Positions 151 through 51,718 of a stretch of 59,149 nt of DNA are shown piece after piece. The number at the start of each line of letters is the position of its first letter. Position 1 is the first letter of the stretch. Both the position numbers and the translations under genes were made by a program. The notes under the pieces were generated by a model, which did no database searches, had not been told where the DNA came from, and saw only the letters and a list, made by a program, of their open reading frames with translations. Source of the DNA: a virus; IMG/VR virus record IMGVR_UViG_3300024518_001350, positions 1 through 59,149 of that record. One strand, written 5' to 3'.

Positions 151-432
151 TGGAATACCCTAACCCATCCGATCCGTTAACCCTAGGGATTTGCTATGGG
201 GTTGCTTCCCCATATGGGAAGACACACACATATGGAAATTCGACGATGATGCCACCCCCCCTTGGACAGCCGAAGGCTGGCTCAAGGTTACACTCGGAGT
301 TCACAGCCATCATTTAAGTAAAAAATAGTAAAGTTCCCCAATATTTCTCTCTCTCTAACCCACCTACACTCTTCCACACAAATTATTTTGCAAAAAATTC
401 AAATAACTGAGATAGGGAGCCTAAAAAAGCCC
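151..432. other. Non-coding stretch of the left control region
   Basis: I see no convincing gene here. The only open frame (126-317, TTG start, no ribosome site) overlaps the repeats and looks accidental. The stretch contains two isolated CATATG sites (211, 229), the first flanked by an imperfect CTTCCC/GGGAAG dyad, and a short CT-dinucleotide run near 346-356. No terminator or clear promoter was recognised before the TTGACA at 433. Confidence 0.5.
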
Positions 433-465: not shown

Positions 466-699
466 GAAAGAGGATAAAAGGTAGTAATATTACTAGGGAG
501 ATCCCTGTAGGGCCTCCCTGACCGTTACAAAGGGGTCTCCCTACTTAGCATCCTCTGTTCAAACTGGAAAATGTTACATGGCTCGCCCTTTTTGGGGCTC
601 GCTGTAGGGTAAATCAAGCCATACCGGTAAGGATAAATCAAGCCGTCTCCTGAGTACCGGCATTAGAAGGAACCAATTAGCCTTGGTTCCTATTTTTTT
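466..699 (+). ncRNA. Candidate structured non-coding RNA
   Basis: There is no credible reading frame, but many helices can form. AGAGGAT at 469-475 pairs with ATCCTCT at 550-556. TAGGGAGA at 494-501 pairs perfectly with TCTCCCTA at 536-543. A 14-bp palindrome lies at 482-495 and competes with it. CCGGTA at 624-629 pairs with TACCGG at 655-660. A direct repeat TAAATCAAGCC lies at 610-620 and 634-644. The 3' end is a strong intrinsic terminator (668-699) and a promoter-like sequence sits just upstream. I do not recognise the RNA class. It could be an independent small RNA or an untranslated regulatory transcript of the left control region. Confidence 0.5.
668..699 (+). terminator. Intrinsic terminator, 9-bp perfect stem plus T7
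   Basis: AGGAACCAA (668-676) pairs perfectly with TTGGTTCCT (683-691) around a 6-nt loop, followed by A and seven T (693-699). It faces rightward and lies upstream of the first protein gene, so it ends a transcript made inside the control region and insulates the lysis/late operon promoter just after it. Confidence 0.9.
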
Positions 700-709
700 G
701 CCAAAAATA

Positions 710-761
710 TGACTTGAATGTAAAAACTGAGCTATAATTTGAGTAAAGGGGGGGGGGTACA
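710..761 (+). promoter_or_regulatory. TATAAT promoter and poly-G leader of the rightward operon
   Basis: A consensus -10 TATAAT lies at 733-738, with only a weak TGACTT-like -35 about 17 bp upstream. Initiation would fall near 745, giving a leader of about 17 nt. That leader consists mostly of AAA plus ten consecutive G (748-757), then TACA and the ATG at 762. The G run must serve as, or contain, the ribosome-binding site. Slippage in it would alter the distance between ribosome site and start. Confidence 0.6.
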
Positions 762-1103
762 ATGCAAGTAGTAAGATTTATAGATGTAGCAGTTAGCTTT
801 ATTTGTGCATGTGTGGCATGGCAAATCATGTTCGGGTCTAACATTCCAGTTGAGTCCGCAGTGTCTGCACTAATTTTGTTTCCAGTGTTGGGTTTCTTAG
901 GTGTTCTCTTTGAGTTATTTAAGATTGTTTCATTCTTTGTAATATTCCTAAGCACAATGTTTGTTTTTGAGCAGCTAATCCTAATAATGAGATCCATAGG
1001 CTATGAGTATAATCATAAGATGAACCCTGGCTATTACAAAGTCCTAGATCTTAGTGATTTTCCAGAGGATGAACCCGCAAGCAGCGAAAAGGAAGATAAT
1101 TAG
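762..1103 (+). CDS. Small membrane protein, candidate holin
   Basis: A 113-residue protein with three hydrophobic segments, near residues 8-24, 33-52 and 54-75, and a very acidic C-terminal tail. This is the build of a class I holin, although holins are too diverse to name by sequence alone. It is the first gene of the operon that also carries a spanin-like pair and an endolysin, which supports a lysis role by context. The start follows the ten-G leader. The next gene begins directly after its TAG. It could instead be another inner-membrane protein acting early on the host. Confidence 0.5.
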   Translation: MQVVRFIDVAVSFICACVAWQIMFGSNIPVESAVSALILFPVLGFLGVLFELFKIVSFFVIFLSTMFVFEQLILIMRSIGYEYNHKMNPGYYKVLDLSDFPEDEPASSEKEDN

Positions 1104-1280
1104 ATGGGCAAGAGCCGTAAGCGTGAAGAAGATTTCATTGATGAGGAAATATCTGAAGATAAACTGGATGATCGTGAACTTAAGAAGAACAGGGTGAAGA
1201 ATAGAAGAAAGCAACTCAATAGAGCTATAGAAGAGAGCATTCTTCTTGGCATAGAACTAGATTCCTTCTATGAGAGTTGA
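1104..1280 (+). CDS. Small charged hypothetical protein (58 aa)
   Basis: The ATG lies directly after the TAG of the upstream gene, and the frame runs 58 codons to TGA at 1278-1280. The product is highly charged, acidic in the first half (EED, DEE, EDK, DDRE) and basic in the middle (KKNRVKNRRK), and lacks membrane segments. The next gene starts inside its last codons. The tight packing, with translational coupling at both ends, is the main evidence that it is real. I recognise no domain. Confidence 0.6.
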   Translation: MGKSRKREEDFIDEEISEDKLDDRELKKNRVKNRRKQLNRAIEESILLGIELDSFYES

Positions 1281-1461
1281 AGTAAATAGCATTGAAGACC
1301 TAGTTGACCTGTCTGTTGATGGAGTTGTTGACCTAACTGACCCAGAGACCGGGAGAGTTATTGTTAAAGGGGTACCTATCTCTATGACAATAGACAACAT
1401 GTCAATAGCCTCCTATGTCTGGGACTATTTAGACACTGATAACCTAATGGAGATAGAATGA
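1270..1461 (+). CDS. Small acidic hypothetical protein (63 aa)
   Basis: A soluble, acidic 63-residue protein with a beta-rich look (VVDLTDPETGRVIVKGVPI) and an acidic C-terminus. It overlaps the end of the previous gene by 11 bases and is followed after one base by the next ATG. No domain recognised. Its position inside the lysis operon suggests co-expression with the lysis genes, but nothing in the protein points to a lysis function. Confidence 0.55.
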   Translation: MRVEVNSIEDLVDLSVDGVVDLTDPETGRVIVKGVPISMTIDNMSIASYVWDYLDTDNLMEIE

Positions 1462-1462
1462 C

Positions 1463-1675
1463 ATGGAGTCAGTACTGATTCTAGTAGGTGTCCTTGTTGG
1501 ATTGATAATTTTAGTGAGATCTATAGGTAAATATGCACACATTGGGGGTAGGGGTGAAGCAAATGCAGAAAACAACGCACATGATGTCAAAATTATCAAC
1601 AGGGTCATGTCTAAGCTCCAGGGCAAGGTACCTAATATCTCTGATATTGCTAATCGTTGGCGTAATAGGATGTAG
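1463..1675 (+). CDS. Candidate inner-membrane spanin (i-spanin)
   Basis: A 70-residue protein with one N-terminal membrane segment (about residues 4-19, VLILVGVLVGLIILV) and a basic/polar periplasmic tail of about 50 residues. A lipoprotein gene starts inside it in another frame, which is the classic nested Rz/Rz1 arrangement, and an M15 endolysin follows. The tail is short for an i-spanin and the coiled coil is not obvious, so the call rests largely on gene arrangement. The last codons overlap the lipobox cysteine codon of the partner gene. Confidence 0.55.
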   Translation: MESVLILVGVLVGLIILVRSIGKYAHIGGRGEANAENNAHDVKIINRVMSKLQGKVPNISDIANRWRNRM

Positions 1676-1838
1676 TCATGGTCGAGGAGCCGTGGTTGTG
1701 GCTCCGTGCCCAGTTCCATCAGCTTTAGCCTACTCCGAGCTAGGAACAATGAATGAATGTTGCCCTGGGATGGTAGAATACCTGGGTAGAGTTGAATTAT
1801 TGTGTGATGCACTAGGAGAGATGAGAAATGAGCGATGA
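1584..1838 (+). CDS. Candidate outer-membrane lipoprotein spanin (o-spanin)
   Basis: From the ATG at 1584 (another ATG precedes at 1581) the protein is 84 residues. A basic N-terminus is followed by a hydrophobic core (LISLILLIVGVIG) and a lipobox cysteine at residue 30, typical of signal peptidase II processing. The mature part of about 54 residues is cysteine- and proline-containing (APCPVPSAL). The first third lies within the i-spanin frame, as in Rz/Rz1 pairs, but the gene extends well past it. Its end overlaps the start of the endolysin. An in-frame ATG at 1533 would add residues before the signal peptide and is less likely. Confidence 0.6.
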   Translation: MSKLSTGSCLSSRARYLISLILLIVGVIGCSHGRGAVVVAPCPVPSALAYSELGTMNECCPGMVEYLGRVELLCDALGEMRNER

Positions 1839-2163
1839 CCCAAGGCTACCACTCAGTCCGTGTGAGTTTGACTCCATGTGTAGGAGGTTGGAGAGAGTCT
1901 TTCCTGACCTCTCACAGACTAGCGGCAAGAGGTCTGCTGCTAGAAACCAAAAAGTAGGAGGTAACCCATTATCTAAACACCTGCTTGGTATGGCAAGGGA
2001 TTATGGAACAGATAGTGAGCCAGACAAGGCTATGCAGGACCACTATTCTGCGATAGCTATTTCTCTGGGGCTTTGGCCTCTCTACCATGATAACCACTTG
2101 CATGTCCAAGGGCTACCCCCTGGGGAGATCCCCCGGTGGTGGAGGGAACGGTACTTAGGTTAA
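1828..2163 (+). CDS. Endolysin, M15-family peptidase
   Basis: A 111-residue protein matching the M15 (D-Ala-D-Ala carboxypeptidase / L-Ala-D-Glu endopeptidase) zinc-site pattern: S49-x-H51-xx-G54-x-A56-x-D58, then H90-L-H92. In this family the first His and Asp and the last His bind zinc and cleave peptidoglycan cross-bridge peptides. The length fits a single-domain globular endolysin without a signal peptide, so it would need the holin candidate upstream. The start overlaps the preceding lipoprotein gene. This is the most secure member of the lysis cassette. Confidence 0.8.
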   Translation: MSDDPRLPLSPCEFDSMCRRLERVFPDLSQTSGKRSAARNQKVGGNPLSKHLLGMARDYGTDSEPDKAMQDHYSAIAISLGLWPLYHDNHLHVQGLPPGEIPRWWRERYLG

Positions 2164-2277: not shown

Positions 2278-3858
2278 GTGTATGGTATACTAATCGAAAT
2301 AGCACCCGAGGGAACTTTGCAAATAGAGATACGCGAAAAGATATATGACAATCTTAAGCACCTCAGTGAGCCTGATGCCAAGCGGGTATTTATACTTCTT
2401 GAGGAACTAGATAAGCGAGAATTTCGTAGCAAGACAGCAAATAGTTTCATAGACTACACGAAGACAATCTGGCCTGAGTTTATATCTGGAACACATCACA
2501 AGATAATGGCGGATGCCTTTGATAGAATAGTTGGTGGTGACCTTAAGAGACTCATTGTCAACATGCCACCTCGTCATACGAAAAGTGAGTTTGCATCATG
2601 GTTACTTCCCTCTTATTTCCTGGGCAAGTACCCTGATAAAAAGTTAATACAAGCATCGCATACAGCAGAGCTGGCACAGAGTTTTGGTCGTCGTGTAAGG
2701 AATCTTATCGACAGTGACGAGTATAAGGATGTATTTCCTGGCGTTCTGCTGAGTAGTGACAGTAAATCAGCGGGTAGATGGAATACAGACAAGGGCGGAA
2801 GCTACTTTGCAATTGGTGTAGGTGGAGCTATAGCGGGTAGAGGTGCTGATCTATTCATAATTGATGATCCGCATTCAGAGCAAGATGCCTATGGTAATGA
2901 CACAAAGTCCTTCGATCTAGTACATGAGTGGTTCACATCAGGACCAAGACAGAGATTGCAGCCAAACGGTGCCATCGTTATTGTGATGACCCGGTGGCAT
3001 AAGAATGATCTAACAGGAAAGATATTAAAAGACTCTCTTGAGAGAGAAGGATCAGATGAGTGGGAGCTAATAGAATTCCCAGCTATCCTTCCTTCGGGGA
3101 GTCCTGTGTGGCCGGAATACTGGTCAGAGGATTTGTTATTATCTTTAAAGGCCGAACTCCCTGTGGGCAAGTGGATGGCGCAGTACATGCAAAATCCATC
3201 AGCAGAAGAGGGGGCCTTGGTGAAGCGGGAGTGGTGGAAGTTATGGGAGGGAGACCCACCACCGGTCAAGTACATCATAATGTCGCTTGACACTGCCTTC
3301 ACCAAAAACACGAAGAATGATCCAACAGCTTGTACAGTGTGGGGCATTTTTGAGGAAGAGAATGCAGAGACTGGAAAAAGTATAGATAGTATAATACTAC
3401 TGGACGCATGGGATGCTTACTTAGAATTCCCAGAGCTGAAGCAGAGAGTCAAGCTAGAGTATACAGAGAAGTGGAAACCAGACCTACTGCTCATAGAGAA
3501 CAGAGGATCTGGTCAGCCATTGATACAGGAGCTAAGGAACGCAGGCATCATGTGTACTGAGTTCACTCCAACCAGAGGCAAGGCTAGTCAGAAGACACCT
3601 GACAAGATAGTAAGAGTTAATAGTATAACTGATATGTTCTCAAGCGGAATCATATATAGGCCCAACAAGAGATGGGCAGAAAAGGTCATGCATCAGTTCG
3701 CAGAGTTCCCAAACGGTGACCATGATGATTATGTGGACAGTGGGACGCAGGCATTGATGAGATTCAGGCAGGGAGGATTCGTAAGGCTAGAGTCTGACGA
3801 TCAGGATGATGACGATGAATTCTATTCTAAGAAGAGGAAACGGAGGAAGTACTACTAA
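2278..3858 (+). CDS. Terminase large subunit
   Basis: A 526-residue DNA-packaging motor. The ATPase Walker A is in the phage form MPPRHTKSE at about residues 96-104, and Walker B is LFIIDD at 192-197. The nuclease domain shows D338 (SLDTAF), E407 (LLIENRGSG) and D484/D487 (HDDYVDSGTQ), the usual metal-binding acids. It cuts and translocates DNA into proheads together with the portal encoded just downstream. An in-frame stop directly precedes the GTG at 2278, so GTG is the first possible start. I did not find a recognisable small-subunit gene upstream. The C-terminus ends in a basic tail (SKKRKRRKYY). Confidence 0.93.
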   Translation: MYGILIEIAPEGTLQIEIREKIYDNLKHLSEPDAKRVFILLEELDKREFRSKTANSFIDYTKTIWPEFISGTHHKIMADAFDRIVGGDLKRLIVNMPPRHTKSEFASWLLPSYFLGKYPDKKLIQASHTAELAQSFGRRVRNLIDSDEYKDVFPGVLLSSDSKSAGRWNTDKGGSYFAIGVGGAIAGRGADLFIIDDPHSEQDAYGNDTKSFDLVHEWFTSGPRQRLQPNGAIVIVMTRWHKNDLTGKILKDSLEREGSDEWELIEFPAILPSGSPVWPEYWSEDLLLSLKAELPVGKWMAQYMQNPSAEEGALVKREWWKLWEGDPPPVKYIIMSLDTAFTKNTKNDPTACTVWGIFEEENAETGKSIDSIILLDAWDAYLEFPELKQRVKLEYTEKWKPDLLLIENRGSGQPLIQELRNAGIMCTEFTPTRGKASQKTPDKIVRVNSITDMFSSGIIYRPNKRWAEKVMHQFAEFPNGDHDDYVDSGTQALMRFRQGGFVRLESDDQDDDDEFYSKKRKRRKYY

Positions 3859-29583: not shown

Positions 29584-31683
29584 ATGGCATACAATAACGC
29601 AGGAATATCTGGCTTGACCGGACCTGATAGTCATGAGTCACCAGACATACTCCAAAGGCTGGATATGTACAGAGGCTACCCAAGTGAAAAGCTTGGGCCA
29701 ATTGCATCCAATGGAGATCTTGCAGCCGTTAGTGTGCTTGCTGACAGAAAGGATCAGGAGAGAAGACAGAAAGAAAATGCAGCTAAGAACCCAACAACCA
29801 CTGCTATAGAAGATTTGATTGCAAGGAATAACTTTCCAGTGGGTAGTAATAGTCTTCCTCAGATGCCTCAAGGTAGACCCGGTATGCAGGGAGCAGACAC
29901 TGCTATGCCTAATATGGGAAGCCCCCCAGGGGCAGGCATGATAGGCGCATCATCCTCTCCGGGGATGGGACTTGCAAGCCAAGGTCCACCCACAGGCTCT
30001 CAGATGCCCCCTGCTGGATTTAATCAACAGCAGGTACCTGGACAGCCCCCTGTCATGGGAGCCAAGGACGGGGGTCTGGTGGACAGATTCAGAAGATCTG
30101 GTGTGAGAGGGTTTAGTGGGGAATATGGCAAGTCTGGATCCTTGATGACTCCAAGTCAGAGAGACGCACTTGATGCCTATAACCGATGGGGTGTTCCTCT
30201 CCCCCCAGGACATCCAAGTTATGATACTGGTCTAGAAGTCTATGCACAGGAGTCACACGCTGATAGATATCGTGCTGAGCAGGAAGCTAGTGGAATGAAG
30301 GTGGGTAGATATAGGGACTTGCCTATACCTCGTAGCGAAATTTCATACAGGTTACCCTTTAGAAGAGATGAACTAGGTGGAGAATACGGACCAGGGCAAG
30401 CTCCTCATGTACCTGCTAGCGATCTCATGCCTCCTGTGCAGGGCATGAAATATAACTTTAATACAGAACCTAGGGAGACGTTCGATACAGGGGCAGACGT
30501 ACCCGGTCAGAAATTTGGTAGGTTTTTAAAGGCTATGAGTAAGATTGATATTCCCGATGTACTCCGTTGGGATCCTGACCACCCATCACTGCACACTAAT
30601 GATGATTGGACTAGTAATAGCGAGTACTACAAAGGTAAAGGCAAGCATGTTAGAGATATTATTGGAGATAAGATAGGTGGAGCCTATAATGCTTTCAAGG
30701 GTGGGATTGATAATAACCCACTTGGAAGGACGGGTAGTGAGTCAGGACATCCTCCGGGTGTATCATTGTTCGTTGATCAGCCATGGATGAAAAGAGTAAG
30801 AGAGAATGTAGCTCAAGGAGAGCCTGATCAAGATCGTATAGCAGCTATGGAAGGTTGGAACTGGTTCGGAGGAATGTTTGATTCTGATGATGTTGGATAT
30901 CAAAACAGAAAGAAAGCAGGAGGGCAAGCCTCTGAAGAGAAAGGAGTTGGAGGTGGCGGTGGCGGTCCTAAAGAAGGTGTAGAAGGTAGACCTAGACCAC
31001 CACTCCTAGAGGCTGGTAAGGTAGATGTTACTGCTATGGATATGTTCATGGATAAGATTGAGGAAATGCAGAGGGGTAAGAGGGGGATGGCCTTACTAGC
31101 GATGGCAGCAGAGATGGGCAAATATCATAAGGGAGGATTCCTTCCATCAGCAGTTGCTGGTATGAATGCTGCTGGTCAATCTGCAAGGGATACTGACACT
31201 CAGACTTTGAAGGGCTATGGTTTAGGAGCAGAGCTGCAACTTCAGAAAGAAAAAATTGCCAATGATTATGCAGTAGGAATGGGTAGAAATGCTTCATACG
31301 CAAGTAATGCCAATGAAAAGGCATATAAAGCCCTAACAAAGGAACAGCGAAGTCTTGTAAATGACCGTATGAAGGCATTCGATACGTCAGCAGATGGTCC
31401 AAGGGCATTAGAAGCTCTCATGCTTGGACGCATGGGATCAAGGGACGACTACAGATATCTTCAATACGCTTTCTATGGTGGAAATGAAATTGATTCAACC
31501 TTGAGTGGTGCAGGTGATTGGGGTCAAGTATCTCCTAGGGATCGTACTGAAGCCAGATCGATAGTTATGCAAGCATTAGTTGCTGATGTTCAGATGCAAT
31601 TAGACATCGGGGGATCTGGTGGGGGTGGTCAAATAAACATAGCTTCTCTGGGTGGTAAACCTATAACTGCGAGTAGATTCTAG
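29584..31683 (+). CDS. Internal virion protein (699 aa)
   Basis: Proline/glycine/methionine-rich N-terminal half (MPQGRPGMQG, PGMGLASQGPP) and a more globular helical C-terminal half (MDKIEEMQRGKRGMALLAM; AMNAAGQSARDTDTQ-like segments). This alternation of unstructured and helical parts is common in podovirus internal proteins. The last TAG overlaps the GTG of the giant gene, so the two are translationally coupled. No catalytic motif seen. Confidence 0.55.
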   Translation: MAYNNAGISGLTGPDSHESPDILQRLDMYRGYPSEKLGPIASNGDLAAVSVLADRKDQERRQKENAAKNPTTTAIEDLIARNNFPVGSNSLPQMPQGRPGMQGADTAMPNMGSPPGAGMIGASSSPGMGLASQGPPTGSQMPPAGFNQQQVPGQPPVMGAKDGGLVDRFRRSGVRGFSGEYGKSGSLMTPSQRDALDAYNRWGVPLPPGHPSYDTGLEVYAQESHADRYRAEQEASGMKVGRYRDLPIPRSEISYRLPFRRDELGGEYGPGQAPHVPASDLMPPVQGMKYNFNTEPRETFDTGADVPGQKFGRFLKAMSKIDIPDVLRWDPDHPSLHTNDDWTSNSEYYKGKGKHVRDIIGDKIGGAYNAFKGGIDNNPLGRTGSESGHPPGVSLFVDQPWMKRVRENVAQGEPDQDRIAAMEGWNWFGGMFDSDDVGYQNRKKAGGQASEEKGVGGGGGGPKEGVEGRPRPPLLEAGKVDVTAMDMFMDKIEEMQRGKRGMALLAMAAEMGKYHKGGFLPSAVAGMNAAGQSARDTDTQTLKGYGLGAELQLQKEKIANDYAVGMGRNASYASNANEKAYKALTKEQRSLVNDRMKAFDTSADGPRALEALMLGRMGSRDDYRYLQYAFYGGNEIDSTLSGAGDWGQVSPRDRTEARSIVMQALVADVQMQLDIGGSGGGGQINIASLGGKPITASRF

Positions 31684-34600
31684 TGGGAACATATAAATAC
31701 TTCTTTCCAACTGGAGGGTACTATCCTGTAGAAGATGATGTATCTATGGAAGATGCAGGCAATCAATTACAGGAATTGTATCCTGCTGGGTTCTATCAAA
31801 ATTTTAGTCCTATGCAGAGAGAAGAAGATATTCGTCAACGTGAGGCTGACAATCAAGGATTCTTTATGGATGTAGTTGGCGAGCCCATTCTTACTGGATT
31901 GGAACGTCATCTCACAACCCTTCCTTTAGCCGGTAGGTTGGCTCATGATTTTGCTACTGCAACTAAAGAGCAGATGAATGACCCTAGGCATCTACAGCAA
32001 TATCGAGATGATTTTGCAGCGATGTCACAGGAGAAGCAAAAGCATACCTTCAGGCAAGCATCTGAACTTATAGCAAGAGGTGAGTTTACAGACTCTGCCA
32101 AGGAGCTTGGCATGTCAGGGCTAGAGAATTTCTTTGGCATGTTGGCCCACTGGGCACCAACGATTGCTTCAAGCAAGCTTGGAGCTGCTGCTGGTACCGC
32201 CATAGCACCCGGTCCTGGCACTCTCGCTGGTGGTATGATTGGGTATTCTGCTATGTCTGCCGATCAGTTTCTAGCAGAGAATCTGATGGAGTCGATTCAG
32301 AGCAACCCAGACATAACCCTTAATGATATAGCAGATAGATTCCCACATTTATTACTTGCCACTGCTGGTCAGGTAGCAACTGAAGCTGTTGCCTTTAAGG
32401 TGTTGGGATTGTTCAGCAACAAGTTACTTGGCAGCATACCTAAGAATGCACCTATAAAAAGGGAACTTGTAAATTCAACTCAGAGAAAAATAGCAAGTAT
32501 AACTGGACCTAGATCTACGGTTCCTAGAAATATAGCACAAGGTGCAGTCGGAGAGGGTGGAGCAGAAGTACTCCAACACATCATGACCAAGTGGCAGGCT
32601 AATGTTCCGATAGATTACGCCGAAGAAGACCACATGTGGGAGTTGATGGAGAACTTCTGGGGTGGATTGAGTGGTGGTGCAGGTATTGGTGCAATGACTA
32701 GTCTGATTGATGGACGTAATCCACAGACTAGCAAGAGAGACAAAGATCTGCAAGATGAAAAGATTAAGAGTTGGGCACATGCTAGAGCAAGAACTGCACA
32801 GCTAGAGACCCAAAGACTTGAAGCAGAGAATAGAGATAAGCAAGCACAAGCAGCAGAAAACTCCCAACTTGAAGCTGAACTAATCAACGAGCAGATAGAT
32901 GTGGATAGGAATGAAGGTAGGTCTGTAGTCTCAGAAGAAGACATACATGCTGCTGCTCTTGAGAGGAATATAAACTCAAGAGATGGAGGGTTCATTGACT
33001 TTGTTAGGAGAACATTCCCTAGTCATGAAGGTCAAATAGATAGCCTGTCAGATCTCAGTTTACAAGAGAAGAACATCCTCTACCAGAATCTTAAAAGATT
33101 CCAGAGGCAAGGAGCAACTGGAACTGGAGAGTCACAACCCGTAAGCTTCAGGGCACACTCAGATAGTGACATTGAGAAAGTAACTGATTCTATAGCTAAG
33201 AGGTTTAAGAGACATAAGAATAAGGCTAAGTTATTCACAGTTGAAGATGTCAAGAAAATACTTGGTGATGCCAGTGATGAGAGAGCCAAATCTTTGATCG
33301 AAGAGTTGCGTGTGAACGGTGTAGTAGAAAACGAAGGGGTAACAGAAACATTAGAACGACTAACGAAGAAACATAGAGAAGATTCAGTAGATTATGATAA
33401 TGATTTCGAGCCAGACTATACAGCACAACAACTTTCTGACCTGTCAGAGGAAGCCTCTAATTGGAATGAAGGTGACAACATCTCACCAGAATTAGGTAGA
33501 TTAATATTAGATAATTCTGGATACGTACTAAACGATGCACAGGTAGATCCAAATACAAGAGCTATATTAGATATAGCGAGAGAGACAACTACATTTCCAA
33601 CATGGGAAGAGATACAGAGGCGCACTAAGGGCAGTAGCCAAGCAGAAACAGTTTTAAAAAGCCAGTATGATGAGGTTGTAGAAAAATTAAAAGCGGATGG
33701 TTCATTACAAACCAATGCAGATGGTGAACTTTTCTTGGCAAGCAGGTATGAACAGGGTGTAGTAGGGAGACAGTATAGAGGAGTAGAGAGAGGAAAGTTC
33801 GTAGTCAGGGCATTGGATGGTTCGATAATATCAGTACATGATACTATCGAAGGTGCTAAGCAGTCAGCACATGAAGCCAATGAAGACAAAGGTGGAGGAG
33901 GCTACGACCTAACAGATGACTTCGGCAACACCACTAGGATAACTGGACGTAAATCTAAAGAGAGAGCCTTAGCATTCATAAGACAGCATAAGAATAGTAA
34001 ATATAAAATATATGTTGATGGCGTAGAAGCAGAGTCAAATCTTAGTAAGACTAAGGCTGAGAAGCTTTCAAGGTGGATGAGAAGTACTAATGGACTGACT
34101 GGTCAAGAGGGGAGAAGAAGAATCACAGTAGGTAGAGATGAATCTAGCTTCCAGTTTAGATCAACTCCAGATTCATATCTGAATAAGCTACCAGATGTTA
34201 TATCTGCTGGAAACACTAAAGAGAATTTATTCGTTGTCGAGGAAACAAAGCTAGGTGAACAGGGGAGATACTTAGGAAGCAAGCTAATAGGATTAGCAGA
34301 CACATTAGCTGATGCAGAGTCTAAGGCTAACAACTTTAGAGATCTTAGGAGAAAATCATTTGACTCAGTAGGTGGCAAGATAGTAGAAGAAGATGCTGAT
34401 CTAGCAGACTTGAGGAATGATCCAATAGGTCATGCGACGAGGAGGGTCAGGGAGGAATCACCACACTTATCCGAACCTATAACTCCATCAGAATCTAAGA
34501 TATACAAAGCAGAGATGACAGAGTATGGGAAGAGGCTGGAGAAATACTTCAATAGAGCCAAGCTAGGTCATTATGGAATCGGTTTACAATTCGTTCATAA

Positions 34601-37600
34601 TATGCAGGACTTGGCATCTTCATTAAAGAATGGAGAAGATGGTTGGTTTAGTACACAGACTGGGATGATAACCTTACTTGATAGATTAGAATATTCACGC
34701 ATAGATGCTAACTCTTCAGATGAGGAAGTGTATCAAGTATTGCTCCCAATCCTGGGTCATGAGATGATGCACGCCTATGAGACACTTGGTTTAATAAAGC
34801 CTTCCGAGAAGAGAAGGATCCTGAAGAGGATGGAAAAGATAAAGAATGCAAATGGTCAGACCTTGGCAGATGAGGTGCGAGAACGGTATAGACATTTAGA
34901 GGGACCAGAATTAGAATCAGAGATGCTTGCTGTAGCGTTAGAGGTATATATAAAAGAGAGGGGATGGTCTTTAACTGATAAGCAGAAAGCATCTAAGAAA
35001 AAGGATATAACAGGTGCAGATGCAAGTGTGATGAGTAGAATTGGTACATGGCTCAGAGGTCTAGGGTCGTATGTCAATAGTAGTGAATGGACTGGAAGAG
35101 ATGAGAAGTTAATGAGTAAGTTTGTGCCAGGGGAGGAGAGGGACAGTCTTACTGTTAGGTCTGCTCGATCTGGCTTCAGACCATTTGATTCTATGGAGGG
35201 AACCATCAGGCCAGAGAGATACACCGATGGTGAGAAGATCGTATGGGATGGAGATGTAAATTCAAGAGGGGACAAGTGGTTAACTATCGTTGAAGTCAAG
35301 GATATACATAACTTGGCAGATGCTAAGGGTGTACCTTGGGATAACGATGAAGAATTTATGCAGAAAACTATGAGGCTAACTGGTAAATCTAACCATTTAG
35401 ATGAACTCAACCCAAGACAAAGGAGGCTTGTATACCTTGACCTAGCAGACATGCAAGATCCCTACAACATAACTGAAACTCAAAGAACTGTTATCCCTAA
35501 AGAAGAAAAGCCTAGAGCCTCAGCAGCCGATGAAGAAGGAGTTGATAACGAACCTTATACTTACGAAGAAGAGTATCCGGATGAAGCCTATGCTTATGAT
35601 GACGAATACGGTATGGGCAGCAGACCCATAGAAGAAGCTAGGAAACATATGAAAGAAAATGCAAATGTTTCCGTCAATATAGAAAGAATGTATGAGCAAG
35701 AGAATGTAGGTATATGGGATGAAAAGCAGCAAGAGATTATCCTTAGGGAGCTTATACAGAATGCATGGGATGCTGTTAAGGGTGCATACCGGAATGGCAT
35801 TATAGATGAGGGGTCTGGTGTTATAAACGTAGAGATAGAAAGTCCAAATGACTATACAATTTTGGAGCCCGAAGGCAAGGTTCAATCTAAGAAGACAATG
35901 GACTATGATGATCTTGAATCTTTATTTGATGGGATGGATGGCGATGTAGAATTAGTACTCTCCAACATGCGTAAGATGGGAAGCATAGAAGAAAATAATA
36001 CTTTTACCTACAGTGGATCAATGGAAGTTCAGGATAGTGGAACTGGTATGTCACCTGAAGATATAACATACCATTTCCTTAACATCAAGGGATCCTCTAA
36101 GCCCAGCACTGAAGCTTCTGAGACAAGCGGAGGATGGGGTGACGCCAAAATGAGGTTCCTCTTTAATCCAAGCCTTATAGTAGTTGAGTCAACCCAGAAC
36201 GGATTAACTACTAGAATCGTATCTGACAGTCGTACTCTCATAGAAAGCTCAACGGACGTAAACATCGTGCTACCTCACAGTGTTGAGCAAGCATGGAACT
36301 ATGGTACGAGTATGGGTCCGACATGGAGTGATGGACGATTTGACTCAGGAACAAGTGTAAAAGTTTTTCTACCAGTAGACATGCCTGTAAAACACGTAAA
36401 TAGTAAACAACGCAAGGATGTCAAGTGGACCAACCACCCAAGGTTCATGAGCTTTCCTCTAATAGGAGATGTCAAAGTAGATCTCATAGTGGATGGCGTT
36501 AGGACTGATCCAAAGGAAGACTATGATGCACCTGGGAATAGAGAAATCCCAGGAATGGGTAAGGACTTAGACATAGGTGGTAAGTACGAGGAGCCAGTTA
36601 GGTACAACGCAGATTGGGGATACATTGATGTTTACAAAGGGCCTTTTGTAACCAGACAGGTGGAGCCCGGTGATAACTTTTCAACTGCTCCAGTATACGT
36701 GTTCTCATCAGGGCTTTACCAGTTTGACACTAGAGGCCCTCAGAGATCTGGAGACACTGAGTTCTCTGGAAGGGTTGACAAAGCATTCCGATTTGATGCT
36801 TCACATGTGATTGGCAGGCTTCTAAATCGAGAGATTCTATTAGATGTACATTCAAATGTCAGACCAGGGGAGGGGGACTACCCATTCCCTAAGTCAAGAG
36901 ATTCATTGATGGAGGAGGCCAAGGAACTCACTACTATCATAGCTAGGGACATTGTAGGGGAAAGAAGAGATCTGGATAGGAAGGACTTTACCGTTAAGAT
37001 GGGTGACGCCACTTACATGAATAGAACAAATGATCCTGTTCAACAAGGGTTCGTCCACATGGATGATGAAGGGAATGCAATCGAACCTTCTGATGATACC
37101 CTCAACAATGATTTGCCATTACTATATAACTTCAGCACCATCGACAACGAAGATATAACTAATAAACAGATGGAGTTCATCGGAGGGTTGGGCAATATCT
37201 TTCGTGATTTCATAGTTGATATAGACGAGAAGGATATACAAGAGCTAGGTTCTCATAGGAAGACTATGGAATATCCTATGAGAAAGCGAGAGAAGATTGG
37301 TAATTGGTCTACTGCTATTGCTATAGCTCCGAAGAGTGACTGGGCTGGACTGAACATGTTCAAAACATTTTCAGACTCCAGTCTTGATCCAGACTCTTCA
37401 GATTTTAAGGGCTTCAGCGGTATTATGCTAATAGACCCATTCAAGTATAACTTCACCAAGTATCTAGAACAGTACATATCTAAAAACCAAGATATAATAG
37501 ATATGAACTCACATGCAACAACGGCGCAGCAGCTATCTCTAGTTAGCCTTTTACAGAAAACTAATCTTGAGACCTACGCAACAACCTGGGCAAACGCAAT

Positions 37601-40600
37601 CTATTCCACGATGGCACATGAAGCCCTTCATGTTAATCACAGGAGTCATAGTCCCGAAAGATTTATTATAGCCTTGGAAAAGTTTATTTCTGAAGGTGTT
37701 CCTTTGCACAATTTACAAGTCCACATAGACAGCCTATCTGAGCTGTTTACCCAAAACCTAAACGAGTATATAGAATTAAAGGAGATGTATGACGGAGCCA
37801 ATGCGAAATCTGATATCGGCATTCTGGAAGGGACAGAGCTACCAAAGCAAAAGCCCATTCTCAACCAAGATGATAGGGGTCTTAATACCACTAGAGACAC
37901 ACGGTCTGCTGAGCGGACAGGAGGGAGACAAAGAACTGGAGAGTCAGTTCCTCTCGGCGAAAGAGGAAGTAGAAGCAATGAGCGAAGGGGAGTTTCTAGA
38001 CTTCGTAAAGGAATAGTTGGTGAGAAGGGTAAAGCTAGTCGTAACAATACCTCGGCAGGAGGTTCAAGCTGGAGAAACCCTGCTCATGTAGGACAACCAG
38101 ATCTTATTAATAATCCAATAAGCACAAAGGATGGAAATAGGAAAATAGATATAGACAAGAAAGGCTTTCATCTACCTACTTACTTAAGGAGTGTTATTGA
38201 ATCAGTTGTACAGCATTATGCTTTATCTCGAAAGGATGAATATAATAATACTTATGGTAAGCAGAGGTTTACACCAGAAAGAGAACAATCTCTGATAGGA
38301 CAGTATAATAACATAAGCATCGAGCCATCACGGGATGACCATCCTCGTTTTCAACAGCATGATCCAAAGGATGGATATACAACTAATACTGAGATATTCA
38401 AAGAATACGTTAGTAAATATATTGCAGATGTAATAGCCTCAGACCTTGGTATACAAACTGCTGGTACTGATTTCGTCAATGACGAAAATCTAGGTGCTGC
38501 AATTGATGAAGTGATACATGAACATCATGTTAACATGATTGCTATGGGGATTAAGGATTCTAGATTCAGGCTTGACAATGGGTATGGATTGGGATCTACG
38601 CAAGCAGAATGGGATGCAGCCACGTCCATTGAAAAAGAATTAATCATTGAGGAAATTATCGAACTGCAAGTTGAGAGTATTGCTGATGAAGAATTCGGAA
38701 CAGGTGATAAAGCTATTCCTATAACGATTGATCAGGTTCGGGATGCAGTATTCAAAATACAAACCGGAAGGAAGTGGCGTAAAGGTCAGGACTCGGATAG
38801 ACCTATCAGGAATTCAGTTATAGAAAAATTTCGGATCCGAAATGATAAAGACGGAGGAAGATTAAAGGTTATAGAGAAATCTTTCGTAAGATTTACTGGA
38901 CAGGGTAGATATGAGGAGAAAGGTAAAGCTAGTAGGGGAAACCAAGGGGTGGTGGTTACTCCTGATGATGTTTCAATGCTTAGTGAGCTTACTTTGTTTC
39001 ATGGAGGAGACTCTGTACTGAAGAGTCTCAGGAGTGGGAGTGAAGGTGGGTCACTAGGCAGTGGGATTTACCTCACTCCTACAAGGGAAAAGGCTGAAGG
39101 TTACGGAAAGAATCTCTATTCCGTCAATGTAAAGATTGACAATCCTCTTATCATAAGTTCATCCCGAGACGTCACTGCCAAAGCTACCCAACCCCTTAAC
39201 TGGGCCGGAAGCAACACTGCTCCCCGGTGGCTTAATCCTGCTGAACACCTATTGATAAAGCTTGGGGTGCCGAGTGAGAAGGCTCATTCCATAGTCGAAA
39301 AAGAGGAAGAAGAGTACGGTTACGTAAGAAACCGAATCCGTTCTCTGGCGAGAAGACAGGGTTACGATGGTATACTACAGTTTATAGATGGTGAGCTAAT
39401 GGAGGTTGTTGCATTCAGCAAAGGTCAGGTTTCCAATGTAGCCGACGCCATTGGTGAAGAGAAAGGTATGGCTAATATACCAAAGAGGGAAAGGGAAAGA
39501 CTAGAACGTGATAGGCTTGAGGCTATAGAGCAACTACCCCCTGATGAGAGAAGGAGAGTTAAAGAGAGGGATAGGATAGCAAAGGCTAATTCTCTAGCCA
39601 CTAAGGCCAGGAGAAAGGAAGAGGCTGCTGCTAAGAAGGTAGTAGATGACGAGAGAGAACTCCTTGAGAGGGACATAGATACTACTATGTCAAGAGGTAG
39701 GGATCTTGGTAACATGCCAGTACAAATCTTAACCCTCAAGCATACTCCAACAGGGACAAGCATTGATATACACAAGTATCCGAAGGCTAGTGATACACTT
39801 CCATCAATAGTGGGTGTGGATATACCAGTACGCAGTGAGGGATTAGGAAGTGCTGCGATACTCATGGATTATGCTAGGGATATATATCCAGACATCAGAG
39901 TAGAACTAGGTACAGGTGACGCAACAGTACCTAATGCTAAGCGTGTTACATTGATCAGGGATCTAAGTACTGATCAAATACGGAAGCTTATCGAGGTCAA
40001 TGAAATGTTGAAAGAGCGATCCCCTAACAACACTTCTAATTACGAATCAGAAGAATACATACAGGTATTAGCTAACAGGGGAGAAAGAGGTAAAGCTTCT
40101 AGGGGGTTCGATACCACCTTACCTGATCAATTCAGGGCGAAGAAGTTAACATTTAATAAGAACACTCTCGACATGATGGTGAAGGAAGCTAAGTCTATAG
40201 CTATCAACAAGATAAAATCTAGATCCTATCCTGATCTGAAAGGTACCGAGAAGGACAGAAGGATTAAGGATATGGTTAGTAGGCAGCAACGATACTACAA
40301 TGACATCATAAGAGATGACAACATAGCGATGAAGGTAGACGTAGTATCTAAGCTTAGCAATCTATACTCTTCCAATCAGTCAGCCACTAACCATGGAGTT
40401 AACAGCTCTGATCTGTATCAGTTCCTTAAGGAGCTATCAGATGCCGGTGTTTCTAGTAATAGAGTCTTTAAGATAAAGAATGATATGTACGATAGCATGG
40501 GTATGGAAACTAGGAAGATAAAGATAAACGATCTAGAAAGAAATTTATTAGATGACGTATCTAAGATACAGTTCTCTCAAGAATTACTAGAGACTAAGAC

Positions 40601-43600
40601 TCCATTCTCTTCAATCCAGCAGTTGATGGATGACTTTAAAGAAAGAAGTCTTACTACCACACCTCGGACTCAGAATATAAATGGGAGTACGGCTTACTTC
40701 ATTGGAAACGAGCTTGGGTTCACTGAGCCGATTGCTATATTCATGAAGCCTTCCGGGTTCAGGGATATGTCTATAGTTGAGATTGTATCCAACGCCGAGT
40801 ATGGGTCTAGGAATATAGAGTATGCGGGTGAAGGGTCACCTCCACTCCATGGTGCTGAAGCGACAGTAAGAACAGCAATGATTATGCTTGATCCAAGCCT
40901 AGGCAGCAAGGTTGCACAATCAACAGAGAAAGGAAGAGCAAGCCTAGGGTATAACTCAACAGTGCATAGTACTGAAGAGCAAGCGATAATGGCTAAGGTT
41001 CATGCACCTGTAAAGCATAGTATATTCAACCAACTAAAAATGTTCTTTGCCGATGACAGCTTCCGAGAGCAGAAGCTATTGGATACAAGGGAAGGATTGG
41101 TGTTCAAGTATGATCCCATAGAGAAGACTTCTGATGAGGTGAGAAGAAGAGCCTTGGATAGGGATCCTGAAAACCCTGTGCTACTGTCCGACACTGGACT
41201 TGGAGATGTTATTCTGGCACAGAAGGGTAATGGTTTACTAGCTGCTTCGTTGAAGTATGGTGTACCAATCTTTGATAAGGTAGCTGGGCTAACTCAAGCT
41301 AAGCTAGGTAGCTTCAAGCTACAGAACATTGAAGGACTACCACCCATATATGAAAAAGAATTTGGTGGCATGATAGACATACTTGGGCCTGCCATAAGTG
41401 ACTATGGTATCAGGGAAGACCTAATGAGGAAGGTCCATGTAGTTCTGTTAGCAACCAGAGGAAGGAGATTTATAAAGGAGAAAAAATTAATACCAGAGGG
41501 TATTAATCCAGAATACCTAGCACTAGCTGATAAGTTCTTGAAGACAAACCCAGAGATTCAAGCCATAGTACACAACTATCAGAGATGGAATGAAGCAATG
41601 ATAGACCATGGGGTTGCTACTGAGTACCTATCCGAGGAGCAGGGTGCAGCATTAAAGAAAAATATGGATTACGTTTCGTTCAAGAGACAATCAATGAACA
41701 TGGAAGACCAACTCTTAGATCATGATTCACTCTTCAATCAGGAACTTCAAGAAGGACTTAAGGGTGACCTCCAAGATCTTAAGCAACCACCCAGGTACAA
41801 GGGTAGCAGGTATGGATTGATAGAAGGCTTCCTAGAGGGAGCTAGCCTTAATGCGTTTACTATGATCCAGAGGGGTCTGAATAATCGGGCAAGTAAGTCT
41901 GTAATAAATGATCAGAAGATTATATTCCCCGATCAGGTTAGGCGTGCAGGTGAGGGCAAAGATGCTAATGGAGTAGATAACAATAAGCTTAGGGATATGA
42001 ATGGTGAGCTACCCACCATGATAGTGAGGGAGAATGGTGAAGAGGTAACATATGTAATAGCTGATGCTCGTGTGGCGAATGCAATGAAGGGATCAATAGG
42101 TATTAGGGATCCATTTGTGGATGGAGTAATGGCTAGGTTCTCTGCTGTGCTGAGGAAGGGTGTCACCATAGCACCAGAGTTTATATACAGAAACACACTA
42201 AAAGATCCAATGGTAAATGCTCTGATCGGTGGTCAATTCAAGGGCTGGAAGGCTCTTACATTGCCATTCGTTGTAGCGGGCAATGCAGTGTCTCACCTTG
42301 CAGGTGGGTCAAGCTACTACACTAAGGAGTTCCTTGAGCTTGAGTCCGTTGGTGGTGCTAGTGGTATCTATAATGATGCACTGTATGCACCAACCCCCGA
42401 GGGATTCAACAACATGCTGGGAGATCAGAAGAGGGGCAAGATAGGATTGAATCCAAAGAAGACATTCTTCGCTATATGGGATGGGCTTGGTGTTGCAAGT
42501 ACCAAATCTGAAACTGCAACTAGGGAGAGAGTTTATGATTCAGTATTGAATGAAACTGGTAGCCTTAAAGAAGCTTTGATACAAGGCATTGAAGTTATGA
42601 ACTATGACAGGAGAGGTGGTAACCAGAACTTTGCTAGGTACGCTTCGATGGCAACCTTCTTGAGTGCCAGTATAAACGGTTGGGACATAGCAGACAGGAC
42701 ATTAAGAAAGGGTACATATAGTATTGATGCCAATCAGAACAACAACGAAGCAAGGAAGAGAGCATGGTACAGGGTAGGTGCGATGGCTGCATTATCTGTC
42801 GGCTATGCCCTAGCATGGGCAGGTGGAGATGATGATGAATGGAGATCATTCGGAGATGAGGTTAGATATAGTAACTGGTTAGTTCCATTCTTTGGTAGTG
42901 CTATCGCAGTCGGGTTGCCATTTGAGTTAGGTGTACTAACTAAGGTGATACCAGAGCTAGCGGTAAGGACGATGCTAAAGGGTATGGATCCATCTGAAGC
43001 AGCCATGATACTGCTAGGTCAAGTTTGGGGTGCAGCTCCAAACATAGCTATGCCTACAGCCTTAGCTGGCATGATCAACATAGGCGGGAGTCCTTGGTCA
43101 GAATCAAGAGGGTGGAATCCCTTCCTTAAGTCTCCTATAATCCCTGACCATATGCCAGTTGGTCCAATGGCTTACGATAATAAGACTAGCCTAACTGCAA
43201 GAGGCTTAGCTACTATGCTTCCGGGTGGTAGTAGTCCTAAGAAATGGGAACATCTTGTCTCTATGTATGGTGGCACCATGGCTGTCAATATCCTAGCTAT
43301 AGCTGATACACTCGTTGATCAACTGATGCCTGGGTTTGCAGCTACCCCCTACACTGAAGCATTTGAAAATATACCTACAGTGAGAGCTATACTCAAACAC
43401 CCGGATGGTGCATCACATATAAATAAATTCCATAAATGGTTCAAGCAGGTAGAGGATCTTACTCATGAGGTTAGAGTTCTGAGTATAGAGAATCCAGCGA
43501 AGGGAAGAAAATTAAAAGAGGCAAACCGTACTACATTGAAGTATGCTCCGATGGCTCAGTCAGTTAAGTCTAGACTTCAAAAGCTTGATAGAAAAGCAAG

Positions 43601-43754
43601 GATAATCAGAGCAAATAAGCATATGGGTAGTAGCGAAAGAACAAAAGCGTTAGAGAGAATAAGGCTAATGAAATTAACTGAGGTTCAGAGGTTTAACAAA
43701 AAGATAGAGGGTAAAGATTACAAGCACATGTCTTATAGTGGTAGAACGTACTGA
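31683..43754 (+). CDS. Giant polyvalent protein (4023 aa): two HExxH sites, GHKL ATPase, ART-like domain, LPD38-like C-terminus
   Basis: Domains in order: an N-terminal glycine-zipper membrane-like stretch (residues ~150-195); winged-helix-like segments (~510-690); a zinc-peptidase-like HEMMH at 1026-1030; a GHKL (HSP90/MutL-type) ATPase with E1356, N1360, D1363, then DSGTG at 1451-1455 and GGWGDA at 1483-1488; a second HExxH, HEALH at 1979-1983; an ADP-ribosyltransferase-like domain with H2440, Y2463 and E2574 in the polyvalent-ART layout; a coiled, charged stretch (~2600-2670); a GNAT-like segment (~2730); and a C-terminal region with hydrophobic helices resembling large polyvalent protein-associated domain 38. 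EKGKASR-like motifs separate the later modules. Such proteins are thought to be packed or injected and act on host targets at entry. The GTG start overlaps the previous stop. Domain calls are by motif; ATPase and ART are the firmest. Confidence 0.8.
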   Translation: MGTYKYFFPTGGYYPVEDDVSMEDAGNQLQELYPAGFYQNFSPMQREEDIRQREADNQGFFMDVVGEPILTGLERHLTTLPLAGRLAHDFATATKEQMNDPRHLQQYRDDFAAMSQEKQKHTFRQASELIARGEFTDSAKELGMSGLENFFGMLAHWAPTIASSKLGAAAGTAIAPGPGTLAGGMIGYSAMSADQFLAENLMESIQSNPDITLNDIADRFPHLLLATAGQVATEAVAFKVLGLFSNKLLGSIPKNAPIKRELVNSTQRKIASITGPRSTVPRNIAQGAVGEGGAEVLQHIMTKWQANVPIDYAEEDHMWELMENFWGGLSGGAGIGAMTSLIDGRNPQTSKRDKDLQDEKIKSWAHARARTAQLETQRLEAENRDKQAQAAENSQLEAELINEQIDVDRNEGRSVVSEEDIHAAALERNINSRDGGFIDFVRRTFPSHEGQIDSLSDLSLQEKNILYQNLKRFQRQGATGTGESQPVSFRAHSDSDIEKVTDSIAKRFKRHKNKAKLFTVEDVKKILGDASDERAKSLIEELRVNGVVENEGVTETLERLTKKHREDSVDYDNDFEPDYTAQQLSDLSEEASNWNEGDNISPELGRLILDNSGYVLNDAQVDPNTRAILDIARETTTFPTWEEIQRRTKGSSQAETVLKSQYDEVVEKLKADGSLQTNADGELFLASRYEQGVVGRQYRGVERGKFVVRALDGSIISVHDTIEGAKQSAHEANEDKGGGGYDLTDDFGNTTRITGRKSKERALAFIRQHKNSKYKIYVDGVEAESNLSKTKAEKLSRWMRSTNGLTGQEGRRRITVGRDESSFQFRSTPDSYLNKLPDVISAGNTKENLFVVEETKLGEQGRYLGSKLIGLADTLADAESKANNFRDLRRKSFDSVGGKIVEEDADLADLRNDPIGHATRRVREESPHLSEPITPSESKIYKAEMTEYGKRLEKYFNRAKLGHYGIGLQFVHNMQDLASSLKNGEDGWFSTQTGMITLLDRLEYSRIDANSSDEEVYQVLLPILGHEMMHAYETLGLIKPSEKRRILKRMEKIKNANGQTLADEVRERYRHLEGPELESEMLAVALEVYIKERGWSLTDKQKASKKKDITGADASVMSRIGTWLRGLGSYVNSSEWTGRDEKLMSKFVPGEERDSLTVRSARSGFRPFDSMEGTIRPERYTDGEKIVWDGDVNSRGDKWLTIVEVKDIHNLADAKGVPWDNDEEFMQKTMRLTGKSNHLDELNPRQRRLVYLDLADMQDPYNITETQRTVIPKEEKPRASAADEEGVDNEPYTYEEEYPDEAYAYDDEYGMGSRPIEEARKHMKENANVSVNIERMYEQENVGIWDEKQQEIILRELIQNAWDAVKGAYRNGIIDEGSGVINVEIESPNDYTILEPEGKVQSKKTMDYDDLESLFDGMDGDVELVLSNMRKMGSIEENNTFTYSGSMEVQDSGTGMSPEDITYHFLNIKGSSKPSTEASETSGGWGDAKMRFLFNPSLIVVESTQNGLTTRIVSDSRTLIESSTDVNIVLPHSVEQAWNYGTSMGPTWSDGRFDSGTSVKVFLPVDMPVKHVNSKQRKDVKWTNHPRFMSFPLIGDVKVDLIVDGVRTDPKEDYDAPGNREIPGMGKDLDIGGKYEEPVRYNADWGYIDVYKGPFVTRQVEPGDNFSTAPVYVFSSGLYQFDTRGPQRSGDTEFSGRVDKAFRFDASHVIGRLLNREILLDVHSNVRPGEGDYPFPKSRDSLMEEAKELTTIIARDIVGERRDLDRKDFTVKMGDATYMNRTNDPVQQGFVHMDDEGNAIEPSDDTLNNDLPLLYNFSTIDNEDITNKQMEFIGGLGNIFRDFIVDIDEKDIQELGSHRKTMEYPMRKREKIGNWSTAIAIAPKSDWAGLNMFKTFSDSSLDPDSSDFKGFSGIMLIDPFKYNFTKYLEQYISKNQDIIDMNSHATTAQQLSLVSLLQKTNLETYATTWANAIYSTMAHEALHVNHRSHSPERFIIALEKFISEGVPLHNLQVHIDSLSELFTQNLNEYIELKEMYDGANAKSDIGILEGTELPKQKPILNQDDRGLNTTRDTRSAERTGGRQRTGESVPLGERGSRSNERRGVSRLRKGIVGEKGKASRNNTSAGGSSWRNPAHVGQPDLINNPISTKDGNRKIDIDKKGFHLPTYLRSVIESVVQHYALSRKDEYNNTYGKQRFTPEREQSLIGQYNNISIEPSRDDHPRFQQHDPKDGYTTNTEIFKEYVSKYIADVIASDLGIQTAGTDFVNDENLGAAIDEVIHEHHVNMIAMGIKDSRFRLDNGYGLGSTQAEWDAATSIEKELIIEEIIELQVESIADEEFGTGDKAIPITIDQVRDAVFKIQTGRKWRKGQDSDRPIRNSVIEKFRIRNDKDGGRLKVIEKSFVRFTGQGRYEEKGKASRGNQGVVVTPDDVSMLSELTLFHGGDSVLKSLRSGSEGGSLGSGIYLTPTREKAEGYGKNLYSVNVKIDNPLIISSSRDVTAKATQPLNWAGSNTAPRWLNPAEHLLIKLGVPSEKAHSIVEKEEEEYGYVRNRIRSLARRQGYDGILQFIDGELMEVVAFSKGQVSNVADAIGEEKGMANIPKRERERLERDRLEAIEQLPPDERRRVKERDRIAKANSLATKARRKEEAAAKKVVDDERELLERDIDTTMSRGRDLGNMPVQILTLKHTPTGTSIDIHKYPKASDTLPSIVGVDIPVRSEGLGSAAILMDYARDIYPDIRVELGTGDATVPNAKRVTLIRDLSTDQIRKLIEVNEMLKERSPNNTSNYESEEYIQVLANRGERGKASRGFDTTLPDQFRAKKLTFNKNTLDMMVKEAKSIAINKIKSRSYPDLKGTEKDRRIKDMVSRQQRYYNDIIRDDNIAMKVDVVSKLSNLYSSNQSATNHGVNSSDLYQFLKELSDAGVSSNRVFKIKNDMYDSMGMETRKIKINDLERNLLDDVSKIQFSQELLETKTPFSSIQQLMDDFKERSLTTTPRTQNINGSTAYFIGNELGFTEPIAIFMKPSGFRDMSIVEIVSNAEYGSRNIEYAGEGSPPLHGAEATVRTAMIMLDPSLGSKVAQSTEKGRASLGYNSTVHSTEEQAIMAKVHAPVKHSIFNQLKMFFADDSFREQKLLDTREGLVFKYDPIEKTSDEVRRRALDRDPENPVLLSDTGLGDVILAQKGNGLLAASLKYGVPIFDKVAGLTQAKLGSFKLQNIEGLPPIYEKEFGGMIDILGPAISDYGIREDLMRKVHVVLLATRGRRFIKEKKLIPEGINPEYLALADKFLKTNPEIQAIVHNYQRWNEAMIDHGVATEYLSEEQGAALKKNMDYVSFKRQSMNMEDQLLDHDSLFNQELQEGLKGDLQDLKQPPRYKGSRYGLIEGFLEGASLNAFTMIQRGLNNRASKSVINDQKIIFPDQVRRAGEGKDANGVDNNKLRDMNGELPTMIVRENGEEVTYVIADARVANAMKGSIGIRDPFVDGVMARFSAVLRKGVTIAPEFIYRNTLKDPMVNALIGGQFKGWKALTLPFVVAGNAVSHLAGGSSYYTKEFLELESVGGASGIYNDALYAPTPEGFNNMLGDQKRGKIGLNPKKTFFAIWDGLGVASTKSETATRERVYDSVLNETGSLKEALIQGIEVMNYDRRGGNQNFARYASMATFLSASINGWDIADRTLRKGTYSIDANQNNNEARKRAWYRVGAMAALSVGYALAWAGGDDDEWRSFGDEVRYSNWLVPFFGSAIAVGLPFELGVLTKVIPELAVRTMLKGMDPSEAAMILLGQVWGAAPNIAMPTALAGMINIGGSPWSESRGWNPFLKSPIIPDHMPVGPMAYDNKTSLTARGLATMLPGGSSPKKWEHLVSMYGGTMAVNILAIADTLVDQLMPGFAATPYTEAFENIPTVRAILKHPDGASHINKFHKWFKQVEDLTHEVRVLSIENPAKGRKLKEANRTTLKYAPMAQSVKSRLQKLDRKARIIRANKHMGSSERTKALERIRLMKLTEVQRFNKKIEGKDYKHMSYSGRTY

Positions 43755-50728: not shown

Positions 50729-50804
50729 TGGTACTCTGGGTAGGGGTCGAACCTACAACCTGTTGGTTAGAAGCCAACTGCTCTATCCATTGAGCTACCA
50801 GAGC
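50729..50804 (-). tRNA. tRNA-Arg(UCU), CCA encoded
   Basis: The acceptor GCTCTGG/CCAGAGT (G1-U72 wobble), D arm AGCTCAATGGATAGAGC, anticodon stem GTTGG/CCAAC with loop CTTCTAA (anticodon UCU, AGA codons), T arm GTAGG-TTCGACC-CCTAC, discriminator A73 and encoded CCA are all complete. Its 5' end directly abuts the stop of the deoxyribosyltransferase-like gene. Confidence 0.95.
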
Positions 50805-51209: not shown

Positions 51210-51352
51210 TGCCTCTCAACTCCCATGAAGTCAAGGAAGTCTTCTCTAGTTTCATCCTCACCTACATAATGATACATATCAGTGGCGAAGGTAGGAGTTA
51301 AAAAGTTAAAATTATCTTCCATTAGACTATTGAAATCTTCTTTACTTATCAT
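51206..51352 (-). CDS. Small acidic protein (48 aa)
   Basis: A 48-codon frame from ATG at 51352 to TGA at 51206-51208, where it overlaps the next ATG (CAATGAG). The product is acidic with aromatic residues (NFNFLTPTFATDMYHYV; EDFLDFMGV). Three SD-like AACAAGGA repeats precede its start. No family recognised; coupling to the deoxyribosyltransferase-like gene supports it as real. Confidence 0.55.
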   Translation of the reverse strand: MISKEDFNSLMEDNFNFLTPTFATDMYHYVGEDETREDFLDFMGVERQ

Positions 51353-51360
51353 CTTGTCTT

Positions 51361-51396
51361 CTCCTTGTTACTCTTCCTTGTTGACTCTTCCTTGTT
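51361..51396 (-). promoter_or_regulatory. Three tandem Shine-Dalgarno-like repeats
   Basis: On the leftward strand, AACAAGGA(A)G occurs three times, with starts 13-14 bases apart (given-strand copies at 51361-51369, 51374-51382 and 51388-51396). The copy nearest the ATG at 51352 is the functional ribosome site; the others may be standby sites or products of local duplication. Confidence 0.5.
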
Positions 51397-51405
51397 ACTA
51401 TTACT

Positions 51406-51473
51406 AGCAATCTCTTTGGGAGATTGCTGTACTGTTCTCTGGTACTAACATTACATACCGACGTAGTCGGTAT
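51406..51473. other. Two perfect hairpins upstream of the leftward tRNA/NDT operon
   Basis: AGCAATCTC (51406-51414) pairs with GAGATTGCT (51420-51428). ATACCGAC (51455-51462) pairs with GTCGGTAT (51466-51473) around a triloop. Neither has a T-run on either strand. They lie between divergent genes and could be operators or 5'-leader structures. Confidence 0.45.
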
Positions 51474-51477
51474 CAAA

Positions 51478-51519: not shown

Positions 51520-51530
51520 GTTCTATTTTT

Positions 51531-51656: not shown

Positions 51657-51718
51657 TTGATATACCATAAATGCTGTGCTAAGCTAGAAGTTTTACATTC
51701 ACATTTAGGGGAAGTTTC

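Follow-up and report, generated by a model that had tools for sequence, protein, structure and literature searches.

A candidate terminated leader RNA ahead of the late genes of an environmental phage

The window, that is, the whole stretch of 59,149 nucleotides of viral DNA analysed here, carries on its plus strand a promoter-like site, a predicted folded RNA and an intrinsic terminator, which stand one after the other directly ahead of the lysis and terminase genes. Judging from these elements and from their fate in a related contig, positions 466-699 very probably constitute a transcription unit ending at 699. We give roughly even chances to the more specific reading that its product is a terminated late leader RNA and that late transcription is gated by this terminator. 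The arrangement is of a known kind and the sequence is new. For a lineage of environmental phages with genomes of roughly 60 kb, the region offers a concrete candidate for a late-gene switch that can be put to the test. If the 466-699 RNA exists, it would carry the terminated-leader strategy of lambda, or a put-like RNA, over to a phage in which no Q protein has been recognised. The features on which this proposal is built are the following:

390 to 417, plus strand: conserved upstream element GCAAAAAATTCAAATAACTGAGATAGGG, within a block (363-432) identical at 70 of 70 positions in contig L002; a degenerate form occurs in contig L005
433 to 459, plus strand: promoter-like site, with TTGACA at 433-438, TG at 451-452 and the -10 hexamer TACTCT at 454-459
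466 to 699, plus strand: predicted terminated RNA, ~234 nt here and ~297 nt in L002
466 to 560, plus strand: conserved 5' domain of 95 nt, with helices, a hairpin at 482-495 and a competing local hairpin 495-500/514-519
574 to 612, plus strand: middle hairpin in which a symmetrical UC/UC internal loop lies between an inner stem (585-589/594-598) and an outer one (578-582/601-605)
624 to 660, plus strand: third hairpin, CCGGTAAGGA / TCCT-TACCGG; the sequence 635-665 is partly conserved
668 to 699, plus strand: intrinsic terminator, a 9-bp stem and T7; L002 has an unrelated 11-bp stem and T7
733 to 738, plus strand: TATAAT, a possible separate late promoter that lacks a good -35 and lies 23 nt ahead of the first late ORF
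762 to 2163, plus strand: lysis cassette (holin candidate, two small ORFs, Rz/Rz1-like spanin ORFs, endolysin)
2278 to 3858, plus strand: gene for the terminase large subunit, terL (phrog_38, 2e-97)

Genome setting and comparison with known late regions

No terminal repeats were detected in the 59149-base record. Rightward genes occupy a 44-kb block from 762 to about 45.3 kb that comprises lysis, terminase, portal and other virion genes, and from ~45.3 kb to 58993 the genes are mostly leftward (recombination, replication and small ORFs), so that, provided the two ends of the genome join, positions 1-760 are a divergent control region. The initial annotation had placed its candidate RNA in a master control region, and in fact the plus-strand promoter-RNA-terminator unit lies within this divergent region, ahead of the lysis, terminase and virion genes. 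In the lysis cassette, the ORF at 762-1103 encodes a small membrane protein that is a holin candidate by its size and membrane features, and the overlapping ORFs at 1463-1675 and 1533-1838 are Rz/Rz1-like by size, membrane/lipoprotein features and overlap (no profile match in either case); 1828-2163 encodes an M15-type peptidase endolysin (Pfam, 4.7e-06). The best relatives of TerL in phage records are those of 023Pt_psg01, HTVC027P and DSL-LC04 (51-53% identity), and its relatives include the Pelagibacter phages HTVC027P and HTVC023P.

In phage lambda the late region is ordered as pR', 6S RNA, tR', lysis genes and terminase, and the 6S leader ends at tR' as long as Q does not antiterminate. 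The window shows the same kind of layout as far as sequence can tell: a promoter and a strong intrinsic terminator ~200 nt apart, enclosing a terminated RNA of about that length, and then lysis, terminase and virion genes, all in one direction. Because of this gene order, we ranked a late leader first, followed by a trans-acting small RNA, control at the DNA level and a put-like RNA. The mechanism of lambda Q antitermination has been described (PMC7171158). In contrast to lambda, no Q-family protein was found here: PF03589, PF06530 and PF06323 had no match in the genome, in a search that is uninformative because the PF06323 control was silent, and the record may be incomplete and the Q families are divergent. 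Lambda-type late leaders also have a Q-binding DNA element and a sigma-dependent promoter-proximal pause; the -10-like TAATAT inside the palindrome 482-495 is not evidence for these here. The phage described here also differs from lambda in having a strong structured 5' domain and a further -10 after the terminator.

Two other phage RNAs are worth comparing. The putRNA of HK022 is ~70 nt long, folds in two stem-loops, binds the polymerase and suppresses termination alone, and putL follows closely on its promoter (PMC9378689). The likeness is one of layout only, in that a phage promoter is directly followed by a structured RNA and then by terminators, and the put sites differ in their short two-stem-loop form and in their position at early promoters. 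The IsrK RNA of Gifsy-1 is reported to have a short terminated form and a read-through form, beside an antiterminator gene (PMC4825925); terminated and read-through forms are also what we would predict for the window, although neither an antQ neighbour nor a target ORF was identified here.

Promoter, terminator and fold

The sequence TGCTACTCT contains a TTGACA box and an extended -10 (TGnTAnnnT at 451-459) separated by a short spacer of 15 nt, a combination that occurs a single time in the 59 kb, considering both strands, and whose position sets the predicted start at ~466. The initial annotation had pointed to the TTGACA, which is indeed present and now has an extended -10 to go with it; however, the -10 hexamer TACTCT is poor, and for this reason the automatic sigma-70 scan omits the promoter at 433. 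The same scan gave a count of promoter-like sites around 433 not clearly above chance. In L002 the -10 at the matching place is TATCCT, nearer to the consensus. The upstream element at 390-417 could be an activator site or an UP-type site.

The terminator is formed by AGGAACCAA-TTAGCC-TTGGTTCCT followed by A and T7; its stem (668-691) is a perfect 9 bp, as first annotated, and its loop has 6 nt. A scan of both strands of the whole 59 kb for T6 behind a perfect stem of 6 bp or more gave 668-699 as the sole site; relaxed criteria added only weaker sites with weaker T tracts. In L002 a different 11-bp stem, AGGGTTTGATC-TTTT-GATCAGGCCCT, precedes the same T7-GCCAAAAAT context. As the L002 hairpin is unrelated and yet ends at the same T7, termination itself appears to be selected, and the maintenance of a terminator through the change of nearly its whole stem is the best evidence that termination at the RNA level matters here. 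Under the strict criteria, neither the relatives at 55-58% in TerL nor the annotated phages show a comparable terminator at this place; the few sites detected there look unrelated, with the possible exception of one at 5000-5017 of L073.

With regard to the fold, the long-range helices that had been proposed do exist as predictions, namely a 7-bp helix at 469-475/550-556, a long helix at 494-506/531-543 with 12 of 13 positions paired, and the hairpin at 482-495, which is a perfect 14-bp palindrome at the DNA level and invariant in L002, but their thermodynamic support is only moderate. For 466-699 the minimum free energy comes to -77.7 kcal/mol, with a z of -2.7 against dinucleotide shuffles (3 of 200 shuffles were as good), and the best 100-nt window of the region ranks 62nd among the 2362 strand-windows of a genome-wide scan. 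The fold is therefore good and not exceptional, better than shuffles only moderately. The 5' domain taken alone reaches a z of about -3.2 both in the window (-3.25) and in L002, and the full L002 homologue reaches -4.8, compared with about -2.6 to -2.7 for 466-699 of the window. The 5' arm AGGGAG has alternative partners, either CTCCCT at 514-519 or 531-543 through the long helix, which might speculatively leave room for a switch. The middle hairpin with the UC/UC loop is present in one copy here and in two copies with altered outer stems in L002.

We considered an RNA from the minus strand, given that the UC/UC loop reads there as tandem GA/GA and that the fold of this strand is of similar quality (z -3.0). 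This possibility is disfavoured, since the terminator fits only the plus strand and the G-U pairs of the middle hairpin and of the L002 terminator become A-C mismatches on the other, which favours a plus-strand RNA. A coding explanation was rejected as well: the window and the homologous region of L002 share no reading frame, in agreement with the earlier view that the stretch holds no gene.

Conservation in related contigs

In four late genes, 39 of 295 fourfold sites (13%) are different between the window and L002. At that divergence, the complete identity of the block 363-432 has a binomial chance of ~5e-5, and the promoter plus 5' domain, identical at 120 of 128 positions (94%, 8 differences), one of ~0.009; these differences are 2 mismatches in 433-465 and 5 mismatches and one gap in 466-560. 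In contrast with the conserved 5' part, 561-761 is heavily rearranged in L002, including the middle of the RNA. Covariation, which the initial annotation had named as a check, could be followed in two distinct sequences, too few for formal covariation in the 5' domain. RNAalifold gave 31 consensus pairs, all of which stay intact despite the six changes, and in no pair have both sides changed. When the fold of the window alone is taken instead, 4 of the 6 changes fall in unpaired positions (P ~0.05) and two pairs no longer form.

The RNA sequence appears to be new and restricted to the window, the near-identical contig L001, L002, and L003, which shares its 3' edge only, the contig starting there. 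A covariance model of the 5' domain, run on 41 sources, gave convincing matches only in the window, L001 and L002, and in viral contigs the patterns made for the upstream element and for the 5' domain recovered only L001, L002 and, through the upstream element alone, L005. Genome contigs had no match to a pattern for the 5' domain core, lysin and holin searches gave no additional contig with this region, phage and plasmid records had no DNA similar to it, and Rfam had no match at curated score (only a chance miRNA match, E = 3). L005, with late genes of ~67% DNA identity to the window over the aligned part, keeps the upstream element (GCAAAAAAWTCWAAWAACTSAGATAGGG) and the late gene order, and has no recognisable RNA or terminator there; the element is therefore older than this form of the RNA. 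A hairpin at 264-295 followed by GGTTACACTCSGA is also common to L005 (~1463-1490), upstream of the conserved promoter element.

Role of the RNA and alternative explanations

According to our favoured reading, the region would be the start of the rightward late transcription unit, where the host RNA polymerase would start near 466, probably with a phage activator at the conserved 390-417 element, make a folded leader of ~230 nt and stop at 699. Later in infection, an antitermination factor or the leader's own structure would allow read-through, and transcription would then enter the lysis, terminase and structural genes. The promoter-like site, the fold, the terminator, their conservation or replacement in L002 and the gene order can be read from the DNA; we infer that the region is transcribed, that read-through gates the late genes and what any antiterminator would be. 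Several observations speak against a late leader: the Q-family search, uninformative as it is, gave no antiterminator, the -10 at 454-459 is weak, L005 manages without a recognisable copy of the RNA, and the second -10 (TATAAT at 733) comes after the terminator, so that the late genes might not need read-through at all.

This last point is in line with the idea of an independent phage small RNA acting in trans, with its own promoter and terminator, and of late genes served by their own promoter at 733. The unit is indeed self-contained by sequence, a similar GCTACAATATG precedes the L005 homologue, and the conserved unpaired stretch GTTCAAACTGGA at 557-568 could be a seed. However, the two phages, close as they are, differ by rearrangement in the middle and 3' parts of the RNA, an antisense scan of the window gave no convincing target and Rfam had no counterpart, and we regard such a regulator as possible and rather unlikely. 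What endures of the structured small RNA originally proposed is thus a discrete plus-strand promoter-RNA-terminator unit that persists in L002 with a replaced terminator, and the position of this unit fits a terminated late leader at least as well as an independent regulator.

Somewhat less probable is that the region works mainly as DNA, through operators, a promoter and an origin of replication, that its terminator serves as an insulator and that the RNA itself has no function. The best conserved block lies upstream of the RNA, the 482-495 palindrome is unchanged in L002, iteron-like 32-bp repeats are present at 65-160 and both strands fold equally well, but only a plus-strand RNA accounts for the terminator and the G-U pairs, and the hairpins persist while their sequences turn over.

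We consider it improbable that the emerging 5' domain binds the RNA polymerase and confers resistance to termination, the RNA itself being the antiterminator as in HK022. The conserved domain directly follows the predicted start and precedes the terminator, as putL follows its promoter (PMC9378689), and no Q protein was found in the search with the silent PF06323 control; nevertheless, putRNA is unlike the long-helix domain of the window, the comparison is one of layout and Rfam gave nothing. Even more doubtful is a new RNA class in which the leader itself would decide late-gene entry, its 5' domain, in the form of the long helix (494-506/531-543) or of the local hairpin (495-500/514-519), serving as an antiterminator, either protein-free or ligand-driven, for the terminator ~110 nt downstream. 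A relation to phi29 pRNA was dropped, proximity to terminase being its sole support.

Finally, some other features of the genome deserve mention. In L001 the G tract at 749-758, ahead of the first late ATG, has two bases fewer; either the tract varies in length over the ribosome-binding site or the difference is noise of the assembly. The rightward block ends in a single ORF of 4023 aa (31683-43754) for a giant virion-type protein, and the early strand carries three tRNA genes (Leu-TAA 50502-50577, Arg-TCT 50729-50804 and Met-CAT 57915-57990). The 32-bp repeats of the control region are three tandem copies (ACACTGTTAAAACCATATGAG...), operator- or iteron-like, near which a minus-strand TATAAT (~44-49) could serve the leftward early genes. 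A second divergent control region with several strong hairpins lies at 51210-51718, upstream of a primase/helicase gene, and its minus strand contains the strongest fold outlier of the window (51401-51500, z -6.7). Each divergent control region has a CATATG-centred palindrome, at 206-220 (CCCCATATGGG) and 51487-51505 (TTTCCATATGGGAAA), and these are possibly sites of one regulator.
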